NCBI RefSeq assembly: GCF_004136635.1
Contig: NZ_NOIU01000002.1
Location: 496,001 to 560,000, forward strand
Length of the DNA stretch: 64,000 nt
Source of the DNA: Rothia halotolerans
Lineage (GTDB): Bacteria > Actinomycetota > Actinomycetes > Actinomycetales > Micrococcaceae
Direction: 5' to 3'
Positions 3,033 to 34,070 of this stretch are shown here, in pieces. Both the position numbers and the translations under genes were made by a program. Position 1 is the first letter of the stretch, and the number at the start of each line of letters is the position of its first letter. Under the pieces are notes generated by a model. The model was not told the DNA's origin. It saw nothing but the letters and a program-made list of their open reading frames with translations, and did no database searches.

Positions 3033-4024
3033 TGGGCACCGTTCTCGAAGACACGACGACGTCCGACGTCGACAAGACACTCTCCCGGCTCCGCGCCGAG
3101 ACCGGGGTCCGCACCCTCGGCCGGGTCCTCACCCTGGTCATCATCGCCGAGACCGGCCACTCCGAGAAGGCCGTCGAGGCGGCGATCGCGGCCAGCCGCG
3201 AGCACCCCTGCCGCATCATCGTCCACGTGGCCCACGACGCCGGCGCCGCCAACCGCCTCGACGCCGAGATCAACCTGGGCGGCGAGGCCGGCGCCAGCGA
3301 GGTGGTGATCCTGCGCGGCTGGGGCGAGTCCGCCCACGCCTCGGAGTCCCTGCTCGCGGCGCTGCTGCTGCCGGACGTCCCGATCGTGGTGTGGTGGCCC
3401 CACTCCCTGCCCGGCAGCGACGCCGACGACTCGATGCGCCGCATCGCCACCCGCCGGATCACCGACTCGGCCCGCGCCGAGCACCCCTGGAAGGCCCTGA
3501 CCTCCCTGCGCAGGACCTACCGGCCGGGCGACACCGACCTCGCCTGGACCCGGCTGACCCAGTGGCGGATCCAGCTGGCGGCCGTGCTGGACGACCTCCC
3601 CCGCGAGGCGACCCGCAAGGTCGTGGTCGAGGGCTCGGAGCGCTCCCCCTCGGTGATCCTGCTGGGGGCCTGGCTCGGCTACAAGCTCGACGCCGACGTC
3701 GAGGTCGTCGGCGACCCCCTGGAGCGCGGCCTGTTCCGCGTCACCCTGTGCCGGGAGGGCGGGGACGTCACGATCCACCGGCCCGGCCGGAACGTCGCGA
3801 CCCTCTCCCAGCCCGGCAGCCCCGACCAGCAGATCGCCCTGCCCGCCCGCAGCCTCGCGCAGTGCCTCGCGGAGGAGCTGCGGCGGCTGGACCCCGACGA
3901 GGCGTTCGGGGACGTCCTGACCCGGGGCCTGGGCACCGCGCGGGTCACCTGGGTGGAGGGGACCGTCTCCGAGGACGCCGAGACCATCGACGAGGACAAC
4001 CGCACGGAGGCCTACGATGCCTGA
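3032..4024 (+). CDS. opcA: Glucose-6-phosphate dehydrogenase assembly protein OpcA
   Basis: 330-residue OpcA. In cyanobacteria and actinobacteria this protein helps assemble and activate glucose-6-phosphate dehydrogenase. The protein has the actinobacterial OpcA pattern, including a DVPIVVWWPHSLP segment and an acidic C-terminus (DAETIDEDNRTE). AGGAGG at 3021-3026 inside the end of zwf gives it a strong ribosome binding site. The start shares one base with the zwf stop, and pgl begins 8 bases before the opcA stop. The three genes therefore form a translationally coupled unit. Confidence 0.93.
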   Translation: MGTVLEDTTTSDVDKTLSRLRAETGVRTLGRVLTLVIIAETGHSEKAVEAAIAASREHPCRIIVHVAHDAGAANRLDAEINLGGEAGASEVVILRGWGESAHASESLLAALLLPDVPIVVWWPHSLPGSDADDSMRRIATRRITDSARAEHPWKALTSLRRTYRPGDTDLAWTRLTQWRIQLAAVLDDLPREATRKVVVEGSERSPSVILLGAWLGYKLDADVEVVGDPLERGLFRVTLCREGGDVTIHRPGRNVATLSQPGSPDQQIALPARSLAQCLAEELRRLDPDEAFGDVLTRGLGTARVTWVEGTVSEDAETIDEDNRTEAYDA

Positions 4025-4781
4025 TCGCTCTCCCCTGACCATCATCCACCCGGACAAGGACCGGCTGCGCGAGGCAGCCGGCGCGCGGATCGCCCTGGCG
4101 ATCGCCGACGCGCTGGCCGAGCGGGAGACCGTCCACCTCAGCCTGACCGGCGGCAGCATGGGCATCGCCGTCTGGGAGGCCGTGGCCGCGAGCCCGCTGG
4201 CGCAGGACATCGCCTGGGACCGCGTGCACTTCTGGTGGTCCGACGAGCGCTTCCTGCCCGCCGGGGACGGTGAGCGCAACGCCCAGCAGGCCTTCGAGGC
4301 CTTCCTGGGCGCCTCCGCGGTCCCCGCCGGGAACATCCACGTGATGGGCTCCAGCGACGACTACTCGGACCAGCACCGGGCCGCGGAGGTCTACGCCGCC
4401 GAGCTCGCGGAGTGGGCCGAGGAGGGCCGGCCCGCCCCCCGCTTCGACCTGACGCTGCTGGGCATGGGGCCGGACGGGCACATCGCCTCGCTCTTCCCCG
4501 GCCGCCAGGAGATCCAGGACGAGGACGACGCCGTGCTCGGCGTCGAGGACTCCCCCAAGCCGCCCCCGGGACGCGTGACGCTGACCCTGCCGCTGATCAA
4601 CGACTCCGAGCGCGTGTGGTTCCTCGTGGCCGGCGAGGACAAGGCCGGGGCGTTCTCCCGCGTGCTCGCGGCCGCCTATCACCGGGCCTCCGCCGGGGAG
4701 CTGGACGAGACGCCGGCCGCCGGCGCCCGCGGGCTCCGCGAGACGCTGTACCTGGTGACCCGGGACGCCCTCGGCTCCTGA
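4017..4781 (+). CDS. pgl: 6-phosphogluconolactonase
   Basis: 254-residue DevB-type lactonase of the glucosamine-6-phosphate isomerase fold. It hydrolyses the lactone made by glucose-6-phosphate dehydrogenase. Visible motifs are LTGGSMG near the N-terminus (phosphate binding), FWWSDERFLP, and the MGPDGHIASLFPG loop with the general-base histidine region. It overlaps opcA by 8 bases and ends the operon, 50 bases before a strong terminator. 6-Phosphogluconate dehydrogenase (gnd) is not in this window. Confidence 0.95.
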   Translation: MPDRSPLTIIHPDKDRLREAAGARIALAIADALAERETVHLSLTGGSMGIAVWEAVAASPLAQDIAWDRVHFWWSDERFLPAGDGERNAQQAFEAFLGASAVPAGNIHVMGSSDDYSDQHRAAEVYAAELAEWAEEGRPAPRFDLTLLGMGPDGHIASLFPGRQEIQDEDDAVLGVEDSPKPPPGRVTLTLPLINDSERVWFLVAGEDKAGAFSRVLAAAYHRASAGELDETPAAGARGLRETLYLVTRDALGS

Positions 4782-6278: not shown

Positions 6279-7502
6279 TCAGGCGCCGAGCGCCTCGAGC
6301 CCGGGCAGGGTCTTGCCCTCGATGAACTCCAGGGAGGCTCCGCCGCCGGTGGAGATGTGGCCGAACTGGTCGTCGCTGAAACCGAGGTTGCGCACGGCCG
6401 AGGCGGAGTCGCCGCCGCCGATCACGCTCATCGCCGGGGAGTCGGCGATGGCCCGCGCGACGCTGCGGGTGCCCTCCGCGAAGGCGGGCATCTCGAAGAC
6501 GCCCACGGGGCCGTTCCAGAAGATCGTCCCGGCCTTGGCGATGTAGTCGGCGAAGACCTCGCGGGTCTCGGGCCCGATGTCCAGGCCGGTGCCGGAGGCG
6601 CCGATCTCCCCTTCCTCGAGGGATTCGATGGGACGCACCTCGGTGCGGGCCTCGGCGTCGAACTTCTCCGCCCAGACGATGTCCCGCGGCAGCACGAACT
6701 CGGTGCCGGCCTCCTCGGCCCGCTTGAGGTACGCCTGCACGTTCTCGACCTGGTCCGCCTCGAGGATCGAGTCGCCGACCCGGTAGCCCTGGGCGGCCGC
6801 GAAGGTGTAGCCCATGCCGCCGCCGATCAGCAGGGCGTCCGCCCTGCCGATCAGGTTGTCGATGACCGCCAGCTTGTCCGAGACCTTGGATCCGCCCATG
6901 ATGACGACGAAGGGACGGTCGGGGTCCTGGATGACCTTGGTGAGCACGTCCAGCTCGGTCTTGACCAGGTCCCCGAGGTAGGAGGGCAGCCGCTGCGCGA
7001 TGTCGTAGACCGAGGCGTGCCGGCGGTGGACGGCGCCGAACGCGTCGTCCACGTAGGCGCCGTGCTCGCCGGTCAGGGAGGCGAGCTCCCCGGCGAGCTC
7101 GGCGCGCTCCGACTCGTCCTTGGAGGTCTCCCGCGGGTCGAAGCGGACGTTCTCCAGGACCAGGATCTGGCCGTCCCGGAGCGCCTCCGCCTTGGCGCGG
7201 GCATCCTCGCCGACGACGTCCTCGGCCGCCAGGACCTCGACGTCGGCCAGCTCGCGCAGCCGCTCGGCCGCGGGGGCCAGCGAGTACTTCGGATCCACCT
7301 GGCCCTTGGGGCGGCCCAGGTGGGCCATCACGATGACACGCGCCCCGGCGTCGGCCAACTTCTCCAGGACCGGCAGCGAGGCGCGGATGCGCCCGTCGTC
7401 GGTGACCCGGTTCCCGTCCAGCGGGACGTTGAGGTCCGAGCGGACCAGGACGGTCCGTCCCTCCACTCCCCCGGATATCAGCTCGGCCAGTGCGTGTGCC
7501 AT
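6279..7502 (-). CDS. pgk: Phosphoglycerate kinase
   Basis: 407-residue glycolytic kinase that transfers the acyl phosphate of 1,3-bisphosphoglycerate to ADP. The N-terminal substrate signature RSDLNVPLD is at 21-29 and HLGRPKG at 61-67. The nucleotide-side motifs NGPVGVFE and GGGDS are near the C-terminus. The length is that of a single-domain-pair bacterial Pgk. It lies 51 bases after gapA on the same strand, so the two are probably co-transcribed. Confidence 0.97.
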
Positions 7503-7553
7503 CGTGTCAGCGCTCCAAACGTCGTCGTGAGGTGGTCCGTGTCTACCGGTAGC

Positions 7554-8944
<1,391 letters not shown>

Positions 8945-9919
8945 TCAGCCGGCCTCGGGCCGGTCCACCGCGTCGGTGCCGGGGATGCCCTCGGCCGCGG
9001 CGTGCTTGTCCGCCATCGCCAGCAGCCGCCGGATCCTGCCGGCGATCGCGTCCTTGGTCAGCGGCGGGTCCGCCAGCCGTCCGAGTTCGTCGAGGCTCGC
9101 GTGGCGGTGGGCCAGGCGGAGGCGGCCCGCGTAGAGCAGGTGGTCCGGGACCTCCTCGCCCAGGATCTCCAGGGCGCGCTCCACCCGGGCGCCGGCGGCC
9201 ACGGCGGCCTGGGCCGAGCGGCGGAGGTTGGCGTCGTCGAAGTTGGCCAGGCGGTTGGCGGTGGCGCGCACGTCGCGGTGGGTGCGGCGGTCCTGCCACT
9301 GCTCGAGCATCCCGTGCGCGCCCATCCGGCGTAGCAGCTGGGCGATGGTCTCACCGTCGCGCACCACGACGCGGTCCGCCCCCCGGACCTCCCTCGCCTT
9401 CGCGAAGACGTCCAGCCGCCGCGCCGCGCCGACCAGCGCCAGCGCAGCCTCCGGCCCGGGACAGGTGAACTCCATGGCCGAGGAGCGGCCGGGCTCGGTC
9501 AGCGAGCCGTGGGCCAGGAACGCCCCGCGCATGACGGCCTCCGACTCGGCGAGCGAGCCGTTGACGACGGCGGGCGGCAGCCCCCGTACCGGCCGGCCGC
9601 GGGTGTCCAGCAGGCCCGTCTGCCGGGCCAGCGCCTCGCCGCCGCGGCGCACGCGCACCACGTAGTGCTCCCCGCGCTTGAGCGCTCCCCCGGAGACGCC
9701 GAGCAGCTCGCTGCGGTGCCCGTAGACCTCCTCGACCACGCCGCGCACCCGCTGTGCGGTCGGCAGGTGGTCCAGCTCGGCCTCGATGACGATCTGGTCC
9801 CCCACCAGGTGCAGCCCTCCCGCGAACCGCAGGATGGTCGCGACCTCGGCCTGCCTGGTCACGGATTTCGGCACATCGAGGGCGGCGAGTTCGTCTTTCA
9901 CGAGTGCCGTGAGGGCCAT
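8945..9919 (-). CDS. whiA: DNA-binding protein WhiA
   Basis: 324-residue WhiA, with an N-terminal LAGLIDADG-homing-endonuclease-like region and a C-terminal helix-turn-helix ([18 protein letters not shown]). In Streptomyces it acts with WhiB to control sporulation septation. In non-sporulating actinobacteria it is conserved and linked to cell division. It is the last gene of the yvcK-whiA end of the conserved uvrC-rapZ-yvcK-whiA group. It begins with ATG at 9919, 88 bases after yvcK. Confidence 0.95.
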
Positions 9920-10007
9920 GCTGAGATTACCTCCGGATTGGGGCTGGGCGGGCGCGGTCGAGAAGGCGCGCGAGATCGCCGGACGGCGATGAGGACCTGT
10001 GCCGAGG

Positions 10008-11033
10008 TTACACGCTCGGTTCAGGCGGTTCCACGTGGGGGCCGGCGGCCGGGCCGCACATGACCTCGCGGTAGGCCGCCGCCAGCAGCTCCGGGTCGTG
10101 GACGTCCGCGGAGCCCTCGGCGCGCACAGGGCGCCAGTGCACCCGGGCGCCGTAGCGGGCCGCCGCCGCCTCGAACTCCGCGTGGCAGTCGATCGCCTCG
10201 GGGTCCGCTATCACGACGTCGACCCGCAGCCCCGGCGCGTAGCGCTCGAGCGTCTCCAGGTGTCCGGCCGCACCCAGCCCCGCCGTCTCGTGCTGCTCCA
10301 GCCCCAGGTTCATCGTGACGCAGATCCTCGCCTGAGAGGCGAGCAGGGCCTCACGGTTGGCGGGGACGAGCAGGTGCGGCACCACCGAGGTGAACCAGGA
10401 GCCCGGCCCGAGGATCACCCACTCGGCCGAGCGGATCGACTCCACGGACTCGGGGCACGGGCGGGGGGCCTCCGGGAGCAGGGAGACGTCCTCCACCCGG
10501 GGCGCCTTCGCCAGGCGCGCCTGGCCCGCGATCGAGCGGCTGGTGCCGTTCGGGTACATCGCGCGGCCGGTGATGACCAGCGGGTCCAGGGCCATCGGCA
10601 GCACCCTGCCGTGGACCTTCAGGAGCCGGCCCGCCCACTCGAGGCCCTCGATCGGGTCCTCCAGCATCTGCCACAGGGCGAGGATGATCAGGTTCCCCAT
10701 CGCGTGCCCGTGCAGCTCCTGCGGCCCCTCCGGCAGCCCCTCGAACCGGTGCTGCATGGCCCGCTGCCACAGGTGGCCCCACTCGGAGTCGTCGCACAGC
10801 GCGGAGAGCGCCATCCGGAGGTCGCCCGGGGGCAGCACGCCGAACTGCTGGCGCAGGCGGCCGGAGGAGCCGCCGTCGTCGGCCACGGTCACCACGGCGT
10901 CGATGTCCGGGGTCAGCCGGCGCAGGGCCGAGAGCGAGGCGTAGAGGCCGTGGCCCCCGCCCAGCGCGGTGACCCGCGGCCCGGACCGGTCCCGGCCCTC
11001 CCCTGCCTCGTCTGCTGCCTCCCGATGCGCCAT
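10008..11033 (-). CDS. yvcK: Gluconeogenesis factor YvcK/CofD-like
   Basis: 341-residue protein of the YvcK (UPF0052) family, needed for growth on gluconeogenic carbon sources and for cell shape in Bacillus and mycobacteria (CuvA). The nucleotide-binding start [19 protein letters not shown] and the [14 protein letters not shown] motif are clear, and the NLIILALW and [16 protein letters not shown] segments follow. I choose the ATG at 11031-11033, which has GGGAGG upstream. A longer reading frame extends through rapZ but its N-terminus is arginine-rich and not family-like. The rapZ stop is 11 bases away. Confidence 0.93.
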
Positions 11034-28025: not shown

Positions 28026-28105
28026 GGACGGGTGCTTCGTCTGTGGAGAGCAGGCGGATGCGGCGAGACGTTCTGCTCTCGGCCGGCTCCTATGCCGCGG
28101 CGGGC

Positions 28106-28804
28106 TCAGCGGGATTCCGCCGCGGACGCCGATGCAGGCTCTCCGTCCCTGGCATCGAGGTAGTCCTGTGCGTGCCGCCGGCCGACGGCGAGGAGCCCGG
28201 CGGGGTCGGGCACCTGCAGGGAGCCGAGGAGCTGAAGCCACGCCTGCTCCACTCGGTGGGCCAGCCGGTCGAGGGCGTCGAGCCGGTCGGCGAGCTGATA
28301 GGTGCCGTACAGCACGGAGATCATCATCCATGCCTCATCCTCGAGGGAGACGGCTTCCGGCAGCTCCCCTGCTTCCTGCGCCCGGCCCAGCTGGCGCTTC
28401 ACGAGAGCCATCCATGCCGTGCACGGCTGGGAGCCTCCCCCGTCGGGGGCCGAGCGGTCTCCTTCCAAGGCCATGGCGGCTCGGAAGATCGACATGTTCC
28501 TCTCGTCGGCGATGACGATGAAGACGATGGCGACCAGGGCCTCGAGCCCGGAGATCCCTCGCTGCTCCAGACGGCCGATGCACTCGGTGAGCAGCTCCTC
28601 CTGGCGGGAGAGGACCGCCCGGGCGATGTCCGCCTTCGCCGGGAAGTGGTACGTGATGAAGTTCGGGGTGCTCTTGCCCAGCGCCTTGAGGATGCCGGTG
28701 TGGGACGTGCCGCCGTAGCCGTGGCGGGCGAACTCTCCGGCGGCGGCCCTGACGATGAGGTCGCGCGTCGCGGAGGAACGCGACTGAGGGGTCCGCGTCG
28801 GCAT
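28106..28804 (-). CDS. TetR-family transcriptional regulator (gamma-butyrolactone-receptor-like)
   Basis: 232-residue TetR regulator. The helix-turn-helix spans about residues 14-60 (AAAGEFARHGYGGTSHTGILKALGKSTPNFITYHFPAKADI). The YHFPAKADIARAVL pattern and the ALDRLAHRVEQAWLQLL-like end resemble the ArpA/ScbR butyrolactone-receptor subfamily, but that assignment is tentative. It is divergent from the ACP, alpha-oxoamine synthase and exporter genes, separated by 245 bases that hold an 18-bp palindrome. It probably represses that operon and responds to its product or a related ligand (inference). Confidence 0.88.
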   Translation of the reverse strand: MPTRTPQSRSSATRDLIVRAAAGEFARHGYGGTSHTGILKALGKSTPNFITYHFPAKADIARAVLSRQEELLTECIGRLEQRGISGLEALVAIVFIVIADERNMSIFRAAMALEGDRSAPDGGGSQPCTAWMALVKRQLGRAQEAGELPEAVSLEDEAWMMISVLYGTYQLADRLDALDRLAHRVEQAWLQLLGSLQVPDPAGLLAVGRRHAQDYLDARDGEPASASAAESR

Positions 28805-28936
28805 CCGACCCTCCTCGCCTGCCTGTCGATCTTCGGGGCGGGTCTCAGTCTACCCGCGTGGCTTGCACCGACCGCCCAGAGGGCTTCCATAAGGCCAGCG
28901 CTGCGGAGCTGACGTTCGTAGCCTGCGGAATCGACG

Positions 28937-28966
28937 TTGTGACAAATTATTAGATGCCCATCTAAT
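28937..28966 (+). promoter_or_regulatory. Promoter and operator of the ACP-synthase operon
   Basis: A perfect palindrome with 8-bp arms, ATTAGATG-CC-CATCTAAT, lies at 28949-28966. A -35-like TTGTGA (28937-28942) and a -10 TCTAAT (28961-28966) are 18 bases apart. The palindrome fills the spacer and covers the -10, as expected for a repressor site. The stretch 28941-28980 is only 12/40 G+C, far below the surroundings. Confidence 0.65.
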
Positions 28967-29049
28967 TTAATGTTAGGCTTCCTCACATCCTGGCCGGGAC
29001 GGTGCACCGGAGACCGCCCCTCCGCCCGTACAGAGAAAGAGCTGTATCC

Positions 29050-29349
29050 ATGTCCTCCACGATTGTCACTGAAGACCATCTGCGATCTATCGTCTTCGAG
29101 ATCCTCGACGATGCTTTCGGGGTAGAGAGTCCCGATCTCAAAACCACGCTCGAAGACATCGGCGTCGATTCGCTGGGGCTGATCGAGCTCATCGCTGAGA
29201 TCGAGACCCGCATCAACTCGCCGGAGGAACTCGAGGGCAAGCTGGCCGGCCTTGATCGCACCGGGACGTTGGGAGCACTCATTGAGCGCCTCCATGGAGC
29301 CGTCAATGCTCTGCCCCCTCCGCCCAGCTCATCTCCGAGGGAACGTTGA
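29050..29349 (+). CDS. Acyl carrier protein (stand-alone)
   Basis: 99-residue phosphopantetheine-binding protein. The attachment serine is in DIGVDSLGLIEL (DSL motif, about residue 40 of this start), flanked by the usual acidic helices (AEIETRI). The last 20 residues are proline- and serine-rich. The ATG at 29050 gives the family-typical N-terminus; an upstream GTG/ATG at 29002 would add an arginine-rich stretch. G+C is low (32/60 at 29101-29160). It is 16 bases before an alpha-oxoamine synthase, so it probably presents the acyl group to that enzyme. It is not beside other fatty acid synthesis genes. Confidence 0.88.
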   Translation: MSSTIVTEDHLRSIVFEILDDAFGVESPDLKTTLEDIGVDSLGLIELIAEIETRINSPEELEGKLAGLDRTGTLGALIERLHGAVNALPPPPSSSPRER

Positions 29350-29365
29350 CAAGAAAGTACGACTC

Positions 29366-30553
29366 ATGACTGACATCCTTCTCGAGAGCCCCATCGCGGA
29401 TGACTTTGCAGGGTGGCAAGCCGAAGGCGTCTCCCCGTTCTTTCCCACCGTGGGCTCCCACGCCGGTAACCGTGTGCGCATGAATAGCCGTGACGGCGTG
29501 CTGATGTTCGGATCCTGCGATTATCTCGGGTTATCTCAGCATCCTGCCGTCGCCGAGGCATCGATCAGGGCAATCCGGCAGTTCGGCACCAACACCTACG
29601 GAGCACAGGCCCTGTGCGGACGCACGGTCCTCCACGAAGGTGTCGAGGAACATCTCGCCCGTCTGCATGCCAAGGACGCAGCACTCCTGTTCCCCTCCGG
29701 CATGTCGGCCAACCTCGCAGTGCTGACCAGCCTGGCCGGCCCGGAAGACACCGTCATCAACGACCGTCTCAACCACATCTCGATCTTCATGGGCGCGAGG
29801 CTCTCCGGCGCGAAGATCCGCACCTACCAGCACAATGACATGCGCCGCTTGGAGGCGATCCTGTCCTCATCGACGGACAAACGGCGCCGCATCATCGTCA
29901 CCGACGGCCTGTTCTCCGCCGACGGGGACCTCGCGCCCCTCGATGAAATCATCGTGTTGGCCCAACGATACGACGCCATGGTCGTCGTCGATGAGGCCCA
30001 CTCCTTCGGGTGCTTGGGCCCGCGGGGTCTAGGGGCTGCTGATCATCACGGCGCTCTGGATAAGGTCGACGTCATCGTGGGCACCATGAGCAAAGCCGTC
30101 GGAAGCACCGGCGGATTCGTCGTCACGAACAATCAGATCCACCTCGCGCTGCGGACGACGGCTCCTTCTTACACGAGTTCACGCGGAGCATCTCCCGCCG
30201 TAGCTGGAGCCGCCCTGAAAGCGCTCGAGATCATCGAACACGACGGCCTTGCCCTCCGCACCAGACTGGGCGAGAACGTCGAGTACATCTCCTCCGGGTT
30301 GAGGTCTGAGGGCATCGACCTCGCCAATACCTCCAGCCAGATCCTCCCTGTCATGATCGGATCCGAAGACACCACCATCCGGGTAGCCCACCGACTCATC
30401 GAATACGGAGTCTTCACCGCGGCCTTCACCTTCCCCAACGTTCCGAAGGGCCAGGCTCGTCTCAGAGTCGGCGTCACCGCCACGCATACCCCGGCTGAGT
30501 GCGATGAGCTCATCGACAAGCTGCTCCTGGTACGGAAGGAATACCCCTTCTAA
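29366..30553 (+). CDS. Alpha-oxoamine synthase (BioF/KBL/CqsA-like, PLP-dependent)
   Basis: 395-residue fold-type I PLP enzyme of class II aminotransferase family. The PLP lysine is K243 in GTMSKAVGSTGG, the aspartate for the pyridine nitrogen is D209 in VVVDEAHSFG, and NHIS (136-139) and GGFVVTN are family marks. Relatives condense an acyl thioester with an amino acid with loss of CO2 (8-amino-7-oxononanoate synthase, 2-amino-3-ketobutyrate ligase, serine palmitoyltransferase, the CAI-1 synthase CqsA). The adjacent ACP suggests an acyl-ACP donor. No other biotin genes are near, so a biotin role is possible but not favoured. Confidence 0.88.
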   Translation: MTDILLESPIADDFAGWQAEGVSPFFPTVGSHAGNRVRMNSRDGVLMFGSCDYLGLSQHPAVAEASIRAIRQFGTNTYGAQALCGRTVLHEGVEEHLARLHAKDAALLFPSGMSANLAVLTSLAGPEDTVINDRLNHISIFMGARLSGAKIRTYQHNDMRRLEAILSSSTDKRRRIIVTDGLFSADGDLAPLDEIIVLAQRYDAMVVVDEAHSFGCLGPRGLGAADHHGALDKVDVIVGTMSKAVGSTGGFVVTNNQIHLALRTTAPSYTSSRGASPAVAGAALKALEIIEHDGLALRTRLGENVEYISSGLRSEGIDLANTSSQILPVMIGSEDTTIRVAHRLIEYGVFTAAFTFPNVPKGQARLRVGVTATHTPAECDELIDKLLLVRKEYPF

Positions 30554-32119
30554 ATGTCCGAGAAGACCCACCCAGGCTCTGACGTCCCCATGTCCACACG
30601 ACCTGCGGACGGTAGTCGCCCACTCCGCACCGGATGGATCCTGGCGGCCATCGCCACCGCCTACCTCGTCGTGATGATGGACTACTCGATCATCAACGTC
30701 GCCCTCCAGACCATCCAGGAGGACTTCGGCGCCTCGAACGCCCAGCTGCAGTGGATGGTCAGCGGGTACGAGATCTTCTACGCCGCGCTGCTGCTCCCCG
30801 CCGGATTCCTCGCCGACCGGTACGGGCGCAACCGCGTCCTGATCATCGGCCTCCTCATCTTCCTCATCGGATCAGGCCTGATGGCCACCGCCGCATCGGC
30901 CGGCCAGATCGTCTCCTGGCGCGTCCTGATGGGCATCGGGGGCGCTGTAGTCCCGGCCACCACGCTCGCGATCATCAAGGACGTCTTCCCGGCAGGGCGG
31001 CAGGCCCGGGCGATGGGCGTGTGGTCGGCCGTTGGCGGCGCATCCGTCGCAGTGGGCCCTGTTCTCGGCGGCCTCCTCGTCCAGTACTTCCCCTGGTGGA
31101 GCATCTTCCTCATCAACGTGCCGATCGTCGCCGCGTGCCTCCTTGTCGTCGCCAAGGTCACGCCCGAGTCCAAGACCCCTGCCGGCGGTCGGCTCGACGT
31201 CGTCGGCATCCTCCTGTCCGCGGCGGCCGTCGGCGCCCTGACCTTCGGCCTCATCCGCGGCGGGGAGACCGCCCGGTGGACGGCGTGGGACACGGCCGGG
31301 GCGATCGCCCTCGGACTGGCCCTCCTCGTGGTCCTTGTCCTCGTCGAACGGCGCCGGATCGCTCCGATGCTCGACGTCGGCCTGCTGCGTCACCGCGCTT
31401 TCGCCACCGGCACCATGTCGATCTCCCTGGCCTACTTCGCGCTGACCGGTGGGACGTTCCTGCTCGTGTTCTACGTCCAGCTCGTCCGCGGCCAATCACC
31501 GCTCGAGCTGGGCCTGTCCATGCTGCCGGTCGCCCTCGGTGCGATCCTGGGATCACTCATCGCCGAATGGCTCATGCGGGCTCTCGGAGCACGGCTGACC
31601 GTCAGCCTGGCGATGCTCGTCCTCGCCCTTGGTTTCGGGATGTTCGGCGTCTCCGACGCCGGCACTCACCAAGTCTGGATCGAGGTCGCCTTCGGCGCCG
31701 CGGGGCTGGGCATGGGCATCACCATGGGCACGACGACGCCGCTGACGATGAGCGAGATCGACGACGCGCGCGCCGGGGCCGCCGCCGGCCTGACCAACAC
31801 CATCCGCGGAGTCACCTCCATCATCGGGGTCGCGGTCCTCGGCGCCGTATATTCCCTGCAGTACCAGGCGCGGATCGCGCCCGCCCTCGATGCGACCGAG
31901 GCCGAGTTGCCGATGAGCGCCGATCAGTCTCTGTCGCAGACACTCACCGCATTGAGGGGCGCCGATGGCATCGAGCCCGGCACTATGGCAAGGCTCCTCA
32001 GCGAAGCCGAGACGGCCTTCGTGGATTCGTTCCATGCGGGGATCTGGGTCGCCGTCGGGGTTCTTGCTCTCGGCCTGCTGCTCGGATTGTTTCTCCTGCC
32101 CAGGAAGCACCGAGCCTAG
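30554..32119 (+). CDS. MFS drug/metabolite exporter, DHA2 (14-TM) type
   Basis: 521-residue major facilitator of the EmrB/QacA drug:proton antiporter group. It has about 14 hydrophobic spans, motif A as GFLADRYGRNR, and motif C in SAVGGASVAVGPVLGG. The ATG follows the synthase stop codon directly, so the genes are translationally linked; a second in-frame ATG exists at 30590. G+C is closer to the genome mean than in the two preceding genes. In this context it probably exports the product of the ACP/synthase pair or gives self-resistance (inference). Confidence 0.9.
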   Translation: MSEKTHPGSDVPMSTRPADGSRPLRTGWILAAIATAYLVVMMDYSIINVALQTIQEDFGASNAQLQWMVSGYEIFYAALLLPAGFLADRYGRNRVLIIGLLIFLIGSGLMATAASAGQIVSWRVLMGIGGAVVPATTLAIIKDVFPAGRQARAMGVWSAVGGASVAVGPVLGGLLVQYFPWWSIFLINVPIVAACLLVVAKVTPESKTPAGGRLDVVGILLSAAAVGALTFGLIRGGETARWTAWDTAGAIALGLALLVVLVLVERRRIAPMLDVGLLRHRAFATGTMSISLAYFALTGGTFLLVFYVQLVRGQSPLELGLSMLPVALGAILGSLIAEWLMRALGARLTVSLAMLVLALGFGMFGVSDAGTHQVWIEVAFGAAGLGMGITMGTTTPLTMSEIDDARAGAAAGLTNTIRGVTSIIGVAVLGAVYSLQYQARIAPALDATEAELPMSADQSLSQTLTALRGADGIEPGTMARLLSEAETAFVDSFHAGIWVAVGVLALGLLLGLFLLPRKHRA

Positions 32120-32126
32120 AGACGCT

Positions 32127-32148
32127 CAGCGGGGGGATATGCCCGCTG
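32127..32148 (+). terminator. Hairpin after the MFS exporter
   Basis: 7-bp arms (32127-32133 and 32142-32148) with an 8-nt loop lie eight bases past the exporter stop. The following CGNR gene converges on it. Confidence 0.45.
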
Positions 32149-32244
32149 TCCTGCCGAGCGCGAGTACCGAGGGAAAGAGGGCCGATGGTGGGAGGGGCGT
32201 TAAGCACGTCCGGTCCGCGCAGCCTCGGCAAGACGACGCGGAAC

Positions 32245-32814
32245 TCAGGCCCCGCGGGCTCGGTACGCCCGTACGCGCTCGCGGGTCTGACAGCGGGCGG
32301 AGCAGTAGTGCTTGGTGCGCGTCGGCGAACGGTCGACCAGCACGTCGGCGCACGCTGAGGACTCGCAGATGCCCAAACGAACCTGCGGCGCCTGTCCTAC
32401 GTAGTCGACCAGAGACGCTGTCAGCACCGCGAGCATCAGCCGTTCCGGGCAGTCGGTCGCCCACTCCAGGCGGATCGCCTCGTCGCCGGCGCTCAGATGC
32501 ACCCTCAGCCCCGCGTCGGCGAGGGCCGCGTTGAGACGCTCTGCGGCAGAGCCCGGCCACGCGTCCGTGAACACAAGGTAGACGAGGTCGCACGCCTCGG
32601 CAACCGCGGGATCGTCGGGCTCTCCGATCTCTGAGGGCCATATCGACCGCAGGGTCCGGCGAGGTCCCGAGTCTCGTGCCGGATACCCTTCCCACGGTCG
32701 CGTTGAGACCTCTTGAGGCACGGTGGCCCATTCGTTGATGAACTCAACGACGGTCTGGACTGGCATCTGGGGCACACGCAGCGGCATGTCCCCCAGAATA
32801 GACACTCTGGCCAC
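32245..32814 (-). CDS. CGNR zinc-finger (ABATE-domain) protein
   Basis: 189-residue protein with an N-terminal ABATE-like region and a C-terminal CGNR-type treble-clef finger. The zinc ligands are C150, C155, C171 and C175. The name-giving CGNR is CQTR here (175-178), followed by the basic RERVRAYRAR helix. Such proteins are presumed transcription factors that sense a small ligand, but none is well characterised. It starts 12 bases after a ketopantoate-reductase-like gene and is probably co-transcribed with it. Confidence 0.85.
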   Translation of the reverse strand: MARVSILGDMPLRVPQMPVQTVVEFINEWATVPQEVSTRPWEGYPARDSGPRRTLRSIWPSEIGEPDDPAVAEACDLVYLVFTDAWPGSAAERLNAALADAGLRVHLSAGDEAIRLEWATDCPERLMLAVLTASLVDYVGQAPQVRLGICESSACADVLVDRSPTRTKHYCSARCQTRERVRAYRARGA

Positions 32815-32826
32815 TGACGCACCTCA

Positions 32827-33759
32827 TCATCGAGCTCGTACTCGTACTCGTGCTTCGCGCGGAGCCATGGCCGCGTAGATCGTATCCAGCACGGGGGTGG
32901 GCACGCCGAGTCGTTGGGATCGGTGCACGACCGCGCCGACCTGATCCTCGAGTTCGGAGGGGCGACCCGCCAGGAGGTCCCGGTGCATCGAGGAGGTCGT
33001 CTCCGGGGCGAAGCCCGAGAGGTACACCTGGAGGACCTCATCGAAATCCTCCGGAGTCAGCTGCACCCCTTCGACGGCGGCGACGGCGAAGACCTCCCGC
33101 ATGGCCGCGGAGACCAGCCCTCGCGTGCGCACATCCGCCCGGGTCTGCCCGACGGGAGCGTCGACGACGGCGCCTACGCCGCCATAGGAGCAGATCAGTG
33201 CGAACTTCTTCCAGAGAGCGGCGGTGATGTCATCGGTCCACGTCGTAGCGGCGCCCGCCGCGCAGAGCGCCTCAGTGAGCCTCCTCGCCGATGACGCGGT
33301 CCGGCCGGCGGGGCTGCCCATCGTCAAGGAGACTTCGGGGCCGATCAGGCGGACGTCCAGAGGCCCGACCCGATTCGCGATGACGACCACGGTGCTGGCG
33401 AAGACCTGCCCGTCCCGAAGGTACTCTCCAGCGGAGTTCGGGGCGTCGATGCCGTTCTGTGTCGTCAGGACCGGTGCCTCCGGCGGTAGCACCGCGGAGA
33501 GGTCCCGGGCGGCTTCGGCGACCTGCCACGCCTTCGTCGCGATGATCGCGGTGTCCGCCCTCACCCCCACGAGGGAATCGATAACCTGCACTCCGCTCAC
33601 TTCTTCGGCGCTTTCGCCGCCGAGGACCCTGAGAGGCTCGGTGCGACTGCGCTCGACCGCCGTGCCCCGTGCTTTGAGGATGACCTCCTCACCGGCCTGG
33701 GCAAGACGGGCCGCGAAATACAGGCCGAGGCTTCCTGCTCCGTATATGAGGGTGCTCAT
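32827..33759 (-). CDS. Ketopantoate reductase-family protein (PanE/ApbA-like)
   Basis: 310-residue NADP-dependent 6-phosphogluconate-dehydrogenase-fold protein. The Rossmann motif YGAGSLGLYFAARL is at the start, TTQNGI carries the family asparagine, and a catalytic lysine fits in ALWKKFALICSYGGVGAV. True PanE makes pantoate for coenzyme A, but many paralogues act on other 2-keto acids. I choose ATG 33757-33759. Being paired with a CGNR regulator, not pantothenate genes, it may not be the housekeeping PanE. It follows an inverted repeat at 33851-33882. Confidence 0.84.
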   Translation of the reverse strand: MSTLIYGAGSLGLYFAARLAQAGEEVILKARGTAVERSRTEPLRVLGGESAEEVSGVQVIDSLVGVRADTAIIATKAWQVAEAARDLSAVLPPEAPVLTTQNGIDAPNSAGEYLRDGQVFASTVVVIANRVGPLDVRLIGPEVSLTMGSPAGRTASSARRLTEALCAAGAATTWTDDITAALWKKFALICSYGGVGAVVDAPVGQTRADVRTRGLVSAAMREVFAVAAVEGVQLTPEDFDEVLQVYLSGFAPETTSSMHRDLLAGRPSELEDQVGAVVHRSQRLGVPTPVLDTIYAAMAPREARVRVRAR

Positions 33760-33850
33760 CGTCGTACCCCACCGGAGCAAACATTGCGGCGGGAACTGCG
33801 GGCCTGGGGAGAGCGGGGCATCGAGGCGTCCTTGTCTCGTAGATGAGGCA

Positions 33851-33882
33851 TGTAACGCTCATCATGCCATATTCCCGTTACA
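33851..33882 (-). promoter_or_regulatory. Inverted repeat upstream of panE-like gene
   Basis: TGTAACG (33851-33857) and CGTTACA (33876-33882) are perfect inverted arms with centres 25 bases apart, about 90 bases upstream of the gene. The sequence between is AT-rich. It could bind the adjacent CGNR protein or another dimeric regulator. Confidence 0.4.
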
Positions 33883-34036
33883 GAGGTAAGGAACTGCCTC
33901 TGGTGGTCGTTGCAGGACTACGGTTTCCACGTTGTCTCACCGATGTCGAGACGGCCGGACCGATGGGGGCGCAGAGAGGGGCTTCGGACAGATGCCCCGA
34001 CCGCCTGTGCAGGCTGCCCAGAGGAGCAACGGGAAA

Positions 34037-34070
34037 GGCCCGGACCCGCAGCACGCTGCGGGTCCGGGCC
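34037..34070 (-). terminator. Terminator after nrdF
   Basis: Perfect 15-bp arms (34037-34051 and 34056-34070) with a 4-nt loop lie 40 bases past the nrdF stop. On the minus strand the stem is followed by CTTTCCC, a short T-run. Confidence 0.85.

Follow-up and report, generated by a model that had tools for sequence, protein, structure and literature searches.

A candidate four-gene cassette for the synthesis and export of an alpha-aminoketone in Rothia halotolerans

What could be made by a locus in which a stand-alone acyl carrier protein (ACP), a pyridoxal phosphate (PLP)-dependent alpha-oxoamine synthase (AOS) and an exporter of the major facilitator superfamily (MFS) follow one another, divergently from a gene for a TetR regulator? 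Such a locus is found in a 64,000-nucleotide stretch of the Rothia halotolerans genome (contig NZ_NOIU01000002.1, positions 496,001 to 560,000), referred to below as the window. Here, profile searches, phylogenetic analysis and the comparison of gene neighbourhoods were combined to interpret it. We propose, with a probability of about one half, that the four genes form a compact, laterally acquired and locally regulated biosynthesis-and-export cassette for an alpha-aminoketone, the product and the substrates being predictions. The probable function of this rare gene set is to make a small fatty amine and to export it; our confidence is higher for the acyl thioester plus amino acid chemistry than for the reading as a whole, and lower for the identity of either AOS substrate.

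In the proposed pathway, enzymes of the host would phosphopantetheinylate the ACP and charge it with a fatty acyl group; the cassette itself encodes no charging enzyme. The AOS would then carry out a decarboxylating condensation of the acyl-ACP and a small amino acid, which would more probably resemble alanine than be serine, and the resulting alpha-aminoketone would be of the 2-amino-3-ketone type. The MFS protein would export this aminoketone or a heterocycle formed from it; a pyrazine had been suggested in the initial annotation. The TetR protein would sit on an intergenic palindrome and repress the divergent promoter until the product, or a ligand related to it, displaces the repressor.

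The synthase and its carrier protein

The four genes are open frames at the positions given by the initial annotation, TetR on the reverse strand and ACP, AOS and MFS on the forward strand, and the tight packing it described was reproduced: 16 bases separate the ACP stop from the AOS start, and the TAA of the AOS directly abuts the ATG of the exporter. Family assignments were obtained with Pfam for the ACP (PP-binding, 28.2 bits, cut-off 20.8), the AOS (Aminotran_1_2, 178.2 bits) and the exporter (MFS_1, 188.1 bits). The exporter scores 224.8 bits with the DHA2/EmrB subfamily model (cut-off 230.2); the 14 transmembrane helices previously ascribed to it were not confirmed, a crude hydropathy count giving 12.

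Judged by its sequence, the AOS falls on the serine palmitoyltransferase (SPT) side of its family. In a maximum likelihood tree of 39 of the 63 extracted AOS sequences, which holds no CqsA row (the other 24 sequences, from related loci, were omitted by choice), the synthase belongs to a five-member clade (100/99) together with the enzymes of Brevibacterium luteolum, Streptomyces clavuligerus (plasmid pCLA1) and two further genomes, G191 and G651. This clade nests in a 17-row group of SPT and secondary-metabolism enzymes (98/95), which also includes the S. multivorum SPT, the enzymes of the fatty acyl-AMP ligase (FAAL)-ACP-AOS operons of Klebsiella and Diaphorobacter and AOSs linked to polyketide synthases (PKS); the KBL, BioF and ALAS rows lie outside, those of BioF on long branches. 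The best solved chain is likewise an SPT (249 bits), against 111 bits for the CAI-1 synthase.

The models for BioF, KBL, SPT, ALAS and CqsA all score the AOS below their cut-offs: BioF, the best, gives 356.9 of 426.45 bits, two KBL models 304.6 of 493 and 337.5 of 460, ALAS 279.5 of 338.55, CqsA 195.8 of 428 and the SPT model SerpalmtaseCFB 324 of 640. The best score alone would favour housekeeping biotin synthesis, the identity that the initial annotation had named as fatal to its own reading. However, it lies below the cut-off, the approximately unbiased (AU) test rejects a grouping of the AOS with the three BioF rows (p 0.007), no bioB reaches the cut-off in this genome (best 48.1 bits against 225, at an assembly completeness of 99.9%) and the best bioA score is 312.3 bits against 405; the synthase is thus not a BioF, and we count the biotin explanation as refuted. 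A KBL identity is also rejected, both by scores below the cut-off and by the AU test with all 15 KBL rows (p 5e-5), an earlier test with 11 of them (p 7e-6) having been unfair because the other KBL rows were left outside. For a grouping with two PKS-AOS rows the AU test gives p 0.024. CqsA was set aside by profile and structure scores only, and by these same scores the earlier comparison with the CAI-1 signal is weak. KBL, BioF and ThAOS share the fold and the catalytic residues of the AOS, but belong to a different clade.

These catalytic residues, the Schiff-base lysine K243, the PLP-stacking H137 and the carboxylate arginine R367, are all kept. In the S. multivorum SPT, as described in PMC10196870, Asn52 and Ser81 contact L-serine via waters and GTFSKS is a characteristic motif; the corresponding places of the AOS are occupied by C51, A80 and GTMSKA, and A80 is followed by Q where most rows carry R. 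Because the two serine-contact residues are changed, an amino acid other than serine is a plausible substrate, and a small one would fit. According to the account of ThAOS in PMC11906848, V79 gates the amino acid, the V79A and V79G variants are faster with Gly, Ala, Ser and 2-aminobutyrate (Aba), and V79G accepts further amino acids; to judge by match offsets and the KBL motif, A80 would occupy the place of this residue (the V of KBL SVRFICG).

The most telling feature of the clade concerns the other substrate. A carrier-protein gene is located within approximately 3 kb of the AOS in 5/5 members: directly upstream in the window and in B. luteolum, about 1.2 kb downstream in S. clavuligerus and G191, and about 3 kb upstream in G651. 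This is the best evidence that the acyl donor would be an acyl-ACP. The nearest solved carrier proteins of the cassette ACP are the actinorhodin ACP (E 3e-4) and AcpM, which do not settle its type. A similar arrangement is described in PMC9386255, where acpR lies ahead of spt and acyl-AcpR is the thioester that rhodobacterial SPTs prefer; as in the acpR-spt operons of Caulobacter and Escherichia coli BL21 given there, a free ACP stands directly upstream of an SPT-side synthase. By its gene set, a Klebsiella plasmid locus (L081) is counted among these ACP-dependent SPT operons. Unlike these operons, the cassette lacks an acyl-ACP ligase and an N-acyltransferase, has changed serine-contact residues and an ACP that does not appear AcpR-like by identity, and adds an exporter and its own TetR regulator.

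The island, its second copy and its synthase-less allele

The initial annotation had inferred transfer from a lower G+C content in the ACP/synthase part (32/60) than in neighbouring genes (42/60), and both counts were exact on recount. At third codon positions the G+C content (GC3) is 0.69 in ACP, 0.78 in AOS, 0.88 in MFS and 0.89 in TetR, as compared with 0.96-0.99 in the neighbouring genes SulP, SRPBCC, nrdF and nrdE. It is also low to the right of the exporter, in the CGNR gene (0.79) and the ApbA-like gene (0.81), both outside the cluster as first drawn, so that the low-GC3 island comprises six genes in about 6 kb.

From 35 genomes of the genus, six congeners were selected by a DNA search for closer comparison. 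SulP, SRPBCC and nrdF lie on one stretch in all six, and the island is absent from the site in five of them (G006, G031, G013, G008 and G003), with 0/6 island proteins found by tblastn at E<=1e-4. The gap between SRPBCC and nrdF is about 150-375 bases in four of the island-less congeners; in G006 it holds about 3.4 kb of unidentified sequence. This distribution, together with the same four genes in another family, supports the lateral gain. In the simplest reading, the DNA of about 28.0-34.0 kb entered at one fixed site before the species of the window and the sixth congener, G024, split. No integrase was noticed beside the cassette when the list of open reading frames (ORFs) of 18-40 kb was read by eye, without a family scan.

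The other family is represented by Brevibacterium luteolum CCUG 46604 of the same order, in which the four genes have identical order and orientation, with identities of 73% for TetR, 64-66% for ACP, 84% for AOS and 82.5% for MFS (residues 2-321). DNA similarity is confined to the cassette within the 12.9 kb compared, save for one 27-base match elsewhere, and a serine recombinase with Resolvase and Recombinase domains lies beside TetR. The linkage of the trio outside this genome, on which the initial annotation had made its reading depend, therefore holds in so far as the trio and TetR stand together in one other genome; there, however, an in-frame TAA interrupts the AOS at codon 53, and the exporter frame from the aligned start runs for 39 codons, homology ending at about residue 321, although in this draft genome sequencing error is possible behind the broken frames. 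Between the window and B. luteolum, the ratio of nonsynonymous to synonymous substitutions (dN/dS) is 0.11 for AOS, 0.25 for ACP, 0.13 for TetR and, over 37 codons only, 0.45 for the exporter; against G024 it is 0.33 for TetR and 0.25 for MFS, all of these values being rough because dS is high (0.5-1.3).

In G024, the TetR (74%), the palindrome and the exporter are found at the same site without ACP and AOS. The island proteins TetR, exporter, CGNR and ApbA are 74-77% identical to those of the window, and the neighbouring SRPBCC 76%. The similarity continues through the palindrome up to the ACP start. Of the 42 bases that follow in G024, 25 coincide with those of the first ACP codons in the window; this is the sole position scoring so high among 14,951 ungapped positions of the G024 locus, and it is collinear; the compared stretch was picked by eye after alignment, so the shuffle value of 1e-5 is optimistic. 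G024 thus possibly keeps a trace of the ACP start. This trace speaks for the loss of ACP-AOS, and we read the G024 allele as such a loss, which would have brought the exporter right up to the divergent promoter region; a gain of ACP-AOS in the other lineages, by insertion into an older TetR-MFS pair, is less likely.

The cassette is very rare. Relatives of the AOS at E<=1e-85 were found in 3/396, 3/394 and 1/396 sampled genomes (own genome included, samples overlapping), and orthologues of the TetR at E<=1e-45 among 396 genomes of the order, a sample that cannot include G024, in the own genome and B. luteolum only. The cassette synthase is present in 1/60 Brevibacteriaceae genomes, one more having an AOS of 36% identity, and in 0/34 congeners, nine of which have an AOS-family match (best 35%). 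A scan of genome contigs, whose peptide patterns would miss relatives of the S. clavuligerus type, gave 14 loci, with B. luteolum alone near (84%) and the others at 34-38%. Among plasmids, 706 records match, all below 60%, S. clavuligerus (three records, 55%) being the sole near one among the matches listed. In viral contigs no encoded relative was found; 19 phage records match, all below 60%, and two of the five matches listed are annotated as 8-amino-7-oxononanoate synthase.

The regulator and the competing explanations

The TetR protein was described earlier as resembling butyrolactone receptors, and this stands in part. Its TetR_N score (23.6 bits) is slightly below the Pfam cut-off of 24. 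With the ScbR model it reaches 118.1 bits at E 5e-34 against a cut-off of 150, so that it is related to ScbR but not a member by cut-off, and its solved-structure relatives comprise seven distinct sequences, including CprB, a gamma-butyrolactone receptor, and AvaR1. In G024 and B. luteolum, counterparts of the perfect palindrome upstream of ACP occupy the corresponding position. In each of the three genomes, a site without mismatches occurs at this locus only, the pattern having been drawn from these three sites; the chance expectation in the window is 0.04 matches. The palindrome is likely to be the operator of the TetR protein, which would bind there, as would fit a dedicated regulator.

Several observations weigh against the proposed cassette. 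With up to two mismatches, the palindrome pattern hits two, one and four places in the R. halotolerans, G024 and B. luteolum genomes and its reversed control zero, five and two (a place read on both strands being counted once for the pattern), so that near-matches carry no weight, and a sigma-70 consensus scan of 28700-29150 gave no promoter. The cassette holds no acyl-ACP ligase, and this missing charging enzyme is a weak point; no ligase or N-acyltransferase adjoins it either, as judged by Pfam for eight window proteins and by eye for the rest of 18-40 kb, distant ligases not having been sought. The ACP is 24% identical to E. coli AcpP and 16-24% identical to the ACPs of five other synthase loci, of which two are FAAL-ACP-AOS operons; it appears neither AcpR-like nor nearer to these synthase-linked ACPs than to AcpP, a further weak point. 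ALAS was set aside by its profile score. Its rows lie apart in the tree, but the AU test does not reject a grouping of the AOS with the two ALAS rows (p 0.108); one with six SPT-side rows (p 0.11) is neither found in the tree nor rejected. Since the cassette is very rare and its only other complete copy is broken, the linkage rests on few genomes. Finally, the exporter-only allele of G024 could also be explained by an exporter that acts on an unrelated substrate.

This last point leads to the view that TetR and the exporter are a general drug-efflux module, the ACP and AOS serving another product encoded elsewhere in the genome. Exporters of this MFS family often handle drugs, and G024 has TetR, palindrome and exporter without ACP-AOS; we nevertheless regard this as unlikely, since the four genes stand together in B. 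luteolum, ACP, AOS and exporter run head to tail behind a single palindrome, and the possible ACP-start trace in G024 points towards a loss and away from an original state with two genes. Less probable still is a CAI-1-like or other diffusible signal that would be secreted and sensed by the TetR protein in a one-cassette signalling circuit. CqsA, like the AOS, is a PLP enzyme with AOS chemistry that uses a fatty acyl thioester, and an ScbR-related TetR would suit such a circuit; however, CqsA is remote by profile and by structures, and a shared signal would be less expected in so few sampled genomes.

True sphingoid-base synthesis, in which the AOS would be an ACP-dependent SPT acting on L-serine and its product would enter a membrane lipid, draws on the SPT as the best solved relative (249 bits), on the clade member of G651 in a dihydroceramide-like operon and on the ACP-SPT operons described in PMC9386255. 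It remains an unlikely explanation, given the replacement of Asn52, Ser81 and GTFSKS by C51, A80 and GTMSKA, a cassette without ligase or N-acyltransferase (the ApbA-like reductase of the island lies on the opposite strand), a SerpalmtaseCFB score of 324 of 640 bits, and the presence of an exporter that a membrane lipid base should not need. A form of the cassette reading which we hold only tentatively is that of a minimal mobile make-and-tolerate system. Its four genes would make a bioactive alpha-aminoketone from a non-serine amino acid and a fatty acyl-ACP, G024 would carry the natural allele of a tolerant non-producer at the same site, and one TetR and one operator would run this difference between producer and resister. 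The G024 allele would make sense if the product were bioactive and the exporter by itself useful against it, and so hints at tolerance.

To return to the biosynthesis-and-export cassette, every one of its parts belongs to a known type. What appears new, within a limited literature search which gave no precedent for an ACP-AOS-MFS-TetR cassette among the matches listed, is their union in one mobile unit: a free-standing ACP, an SPT-side synthase whose serine pocket is altered, an exporter and a TetR regulator of its own, together with the existence of a synthase-less allele. Alaremycin (AlmA) was weighed as a precedent but found no support in the literature searched. If a free ACP and one SPT-side synthase suffice for an exported product, the four genes would constitute a lipid-amine pathway of unusually small size. 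The exporter-only allele of G024 would then serve as a natural control at that site, and predicts that the exporter protects against the product.

Feature list and related loci

Table 1. Features of the cassette and the surrounding island (positions in the window)
Feature	Position	Strand	Basis or remark
TetR regulator, ScbR/butyrolactone-receptor-related, divergent from the operon	28106..28804	-	ORF and family matches
16-bp palindrome TTAGATGCCCATCTAA, candidate TetR operator	28950..28965		between TetR and ACP
Free ACP, 99 aa, GVDSLGLIEL	29050..29349	+	ORF and PP-binding match
PLP-dependent AOS, 395 aa, K243 in GTMSKA, SPT-side clade	29366..30553	+	profiles, tree
DHA2-like MFS exporter, 521 aa	30554..32119	+	MFS_1 and DHA2/EmrB scores
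CGNR zinc-finger protein, same low-GC3 island, also in G024	32245..32814	-	no evidence of a cassette role
ApbA/PanE-like reductase, same island, also in G024	32827..33780	-	family match, low GC3
Island between SRPBCC and nrdF, approximate extent	28026..34036		congener comparison

At the right edge of the island, positions 34037-34070 match their own complement (94%), possibly as an nrd terminator. The island of G024 holds extra frames (locus L072, reverse orientation, 3111-4580, 7112-8098 and 9622-10926), one of them transporter-like and one HMG-CoA-lyase-like by reading. Together with the 3.4 kb of G006, these frames mark the SRPBCC-nrdF gap as a possible hot spot of gene gain.

The nearest relatives of the AOS outside the cassette are those of S. 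clavuligerus and G191 (53-55%), which share the C at the Asn52 place, the Q after the Ser81 place and a free ACP about 1.2 kb away, but differ by an S at the Ser81 place and by a large 2,3-diaminopropionate cluster; no match to the cassette TetR or MFS was found in the stretches compared. On pCLA1 (L052:9829-22878) this cluster includes SbnA and SbnB (over cut-offs), the AOS, an acyl-CoA dehydrogenase, the ACP and parts of non-ribosomal peptide synthetases (NRPS), and G191 (L054) has the same order by reading, with an ACP of 61% identity. By reading, two SbnA/SbnB (2,3-diaminopropionate) gene pairs are present on pCLA1. G651 (L056:6177-13478) carries an actinobacterial dihydroceramide-like run of ACP, YghO-like acyltransferase, ligase-like, AOS, PAP2, luciferase-like (by reading) and NAD epimerase genes, a set that matches the one given for dihydroceramide in PMC9386255; its acyltransferase is 26% identical (E 5e-36) to that of the Klebsiella cluster, and its fatty acyl-AMP-ligase-like enzyme scores below family cut-offs. 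In the other ACP-linked synthase loci compared, those of Klebsiella, Diaphorobacter, G651, Methylocystis and the S. clavuligerus type, a ligase, PKS or NRPS gene is found near the synthase.

Two further AOS loci were observed. In R. halotolerans itself, a ketosynthase, an acyltransferase (AT)-ACP-AOS fusion of 1185 aa and NAD-epimerase-like genes stand in a row (L037:6085-12234; G000:C3, about 690,084-696,233); this locus resembles SgaAB, the PKS-plus-AOS sphinganine system of Pseudomonas fluorescens as described in PMC12134224, and the tree places its AOS domain with a PKS-linked AOS from Paraburkholderia (100/99). On a plasmid of Streptomyces NBC_00158 (L082:3097-11152), a fusion of a short-chain dehydrogenase/reductase (SDR) with an AOS lies near a ketosynthase and is followed by histone-deacetylase-like, thioesterase and MFS transporter genes, which makes it a further AOS locus with a transporter.

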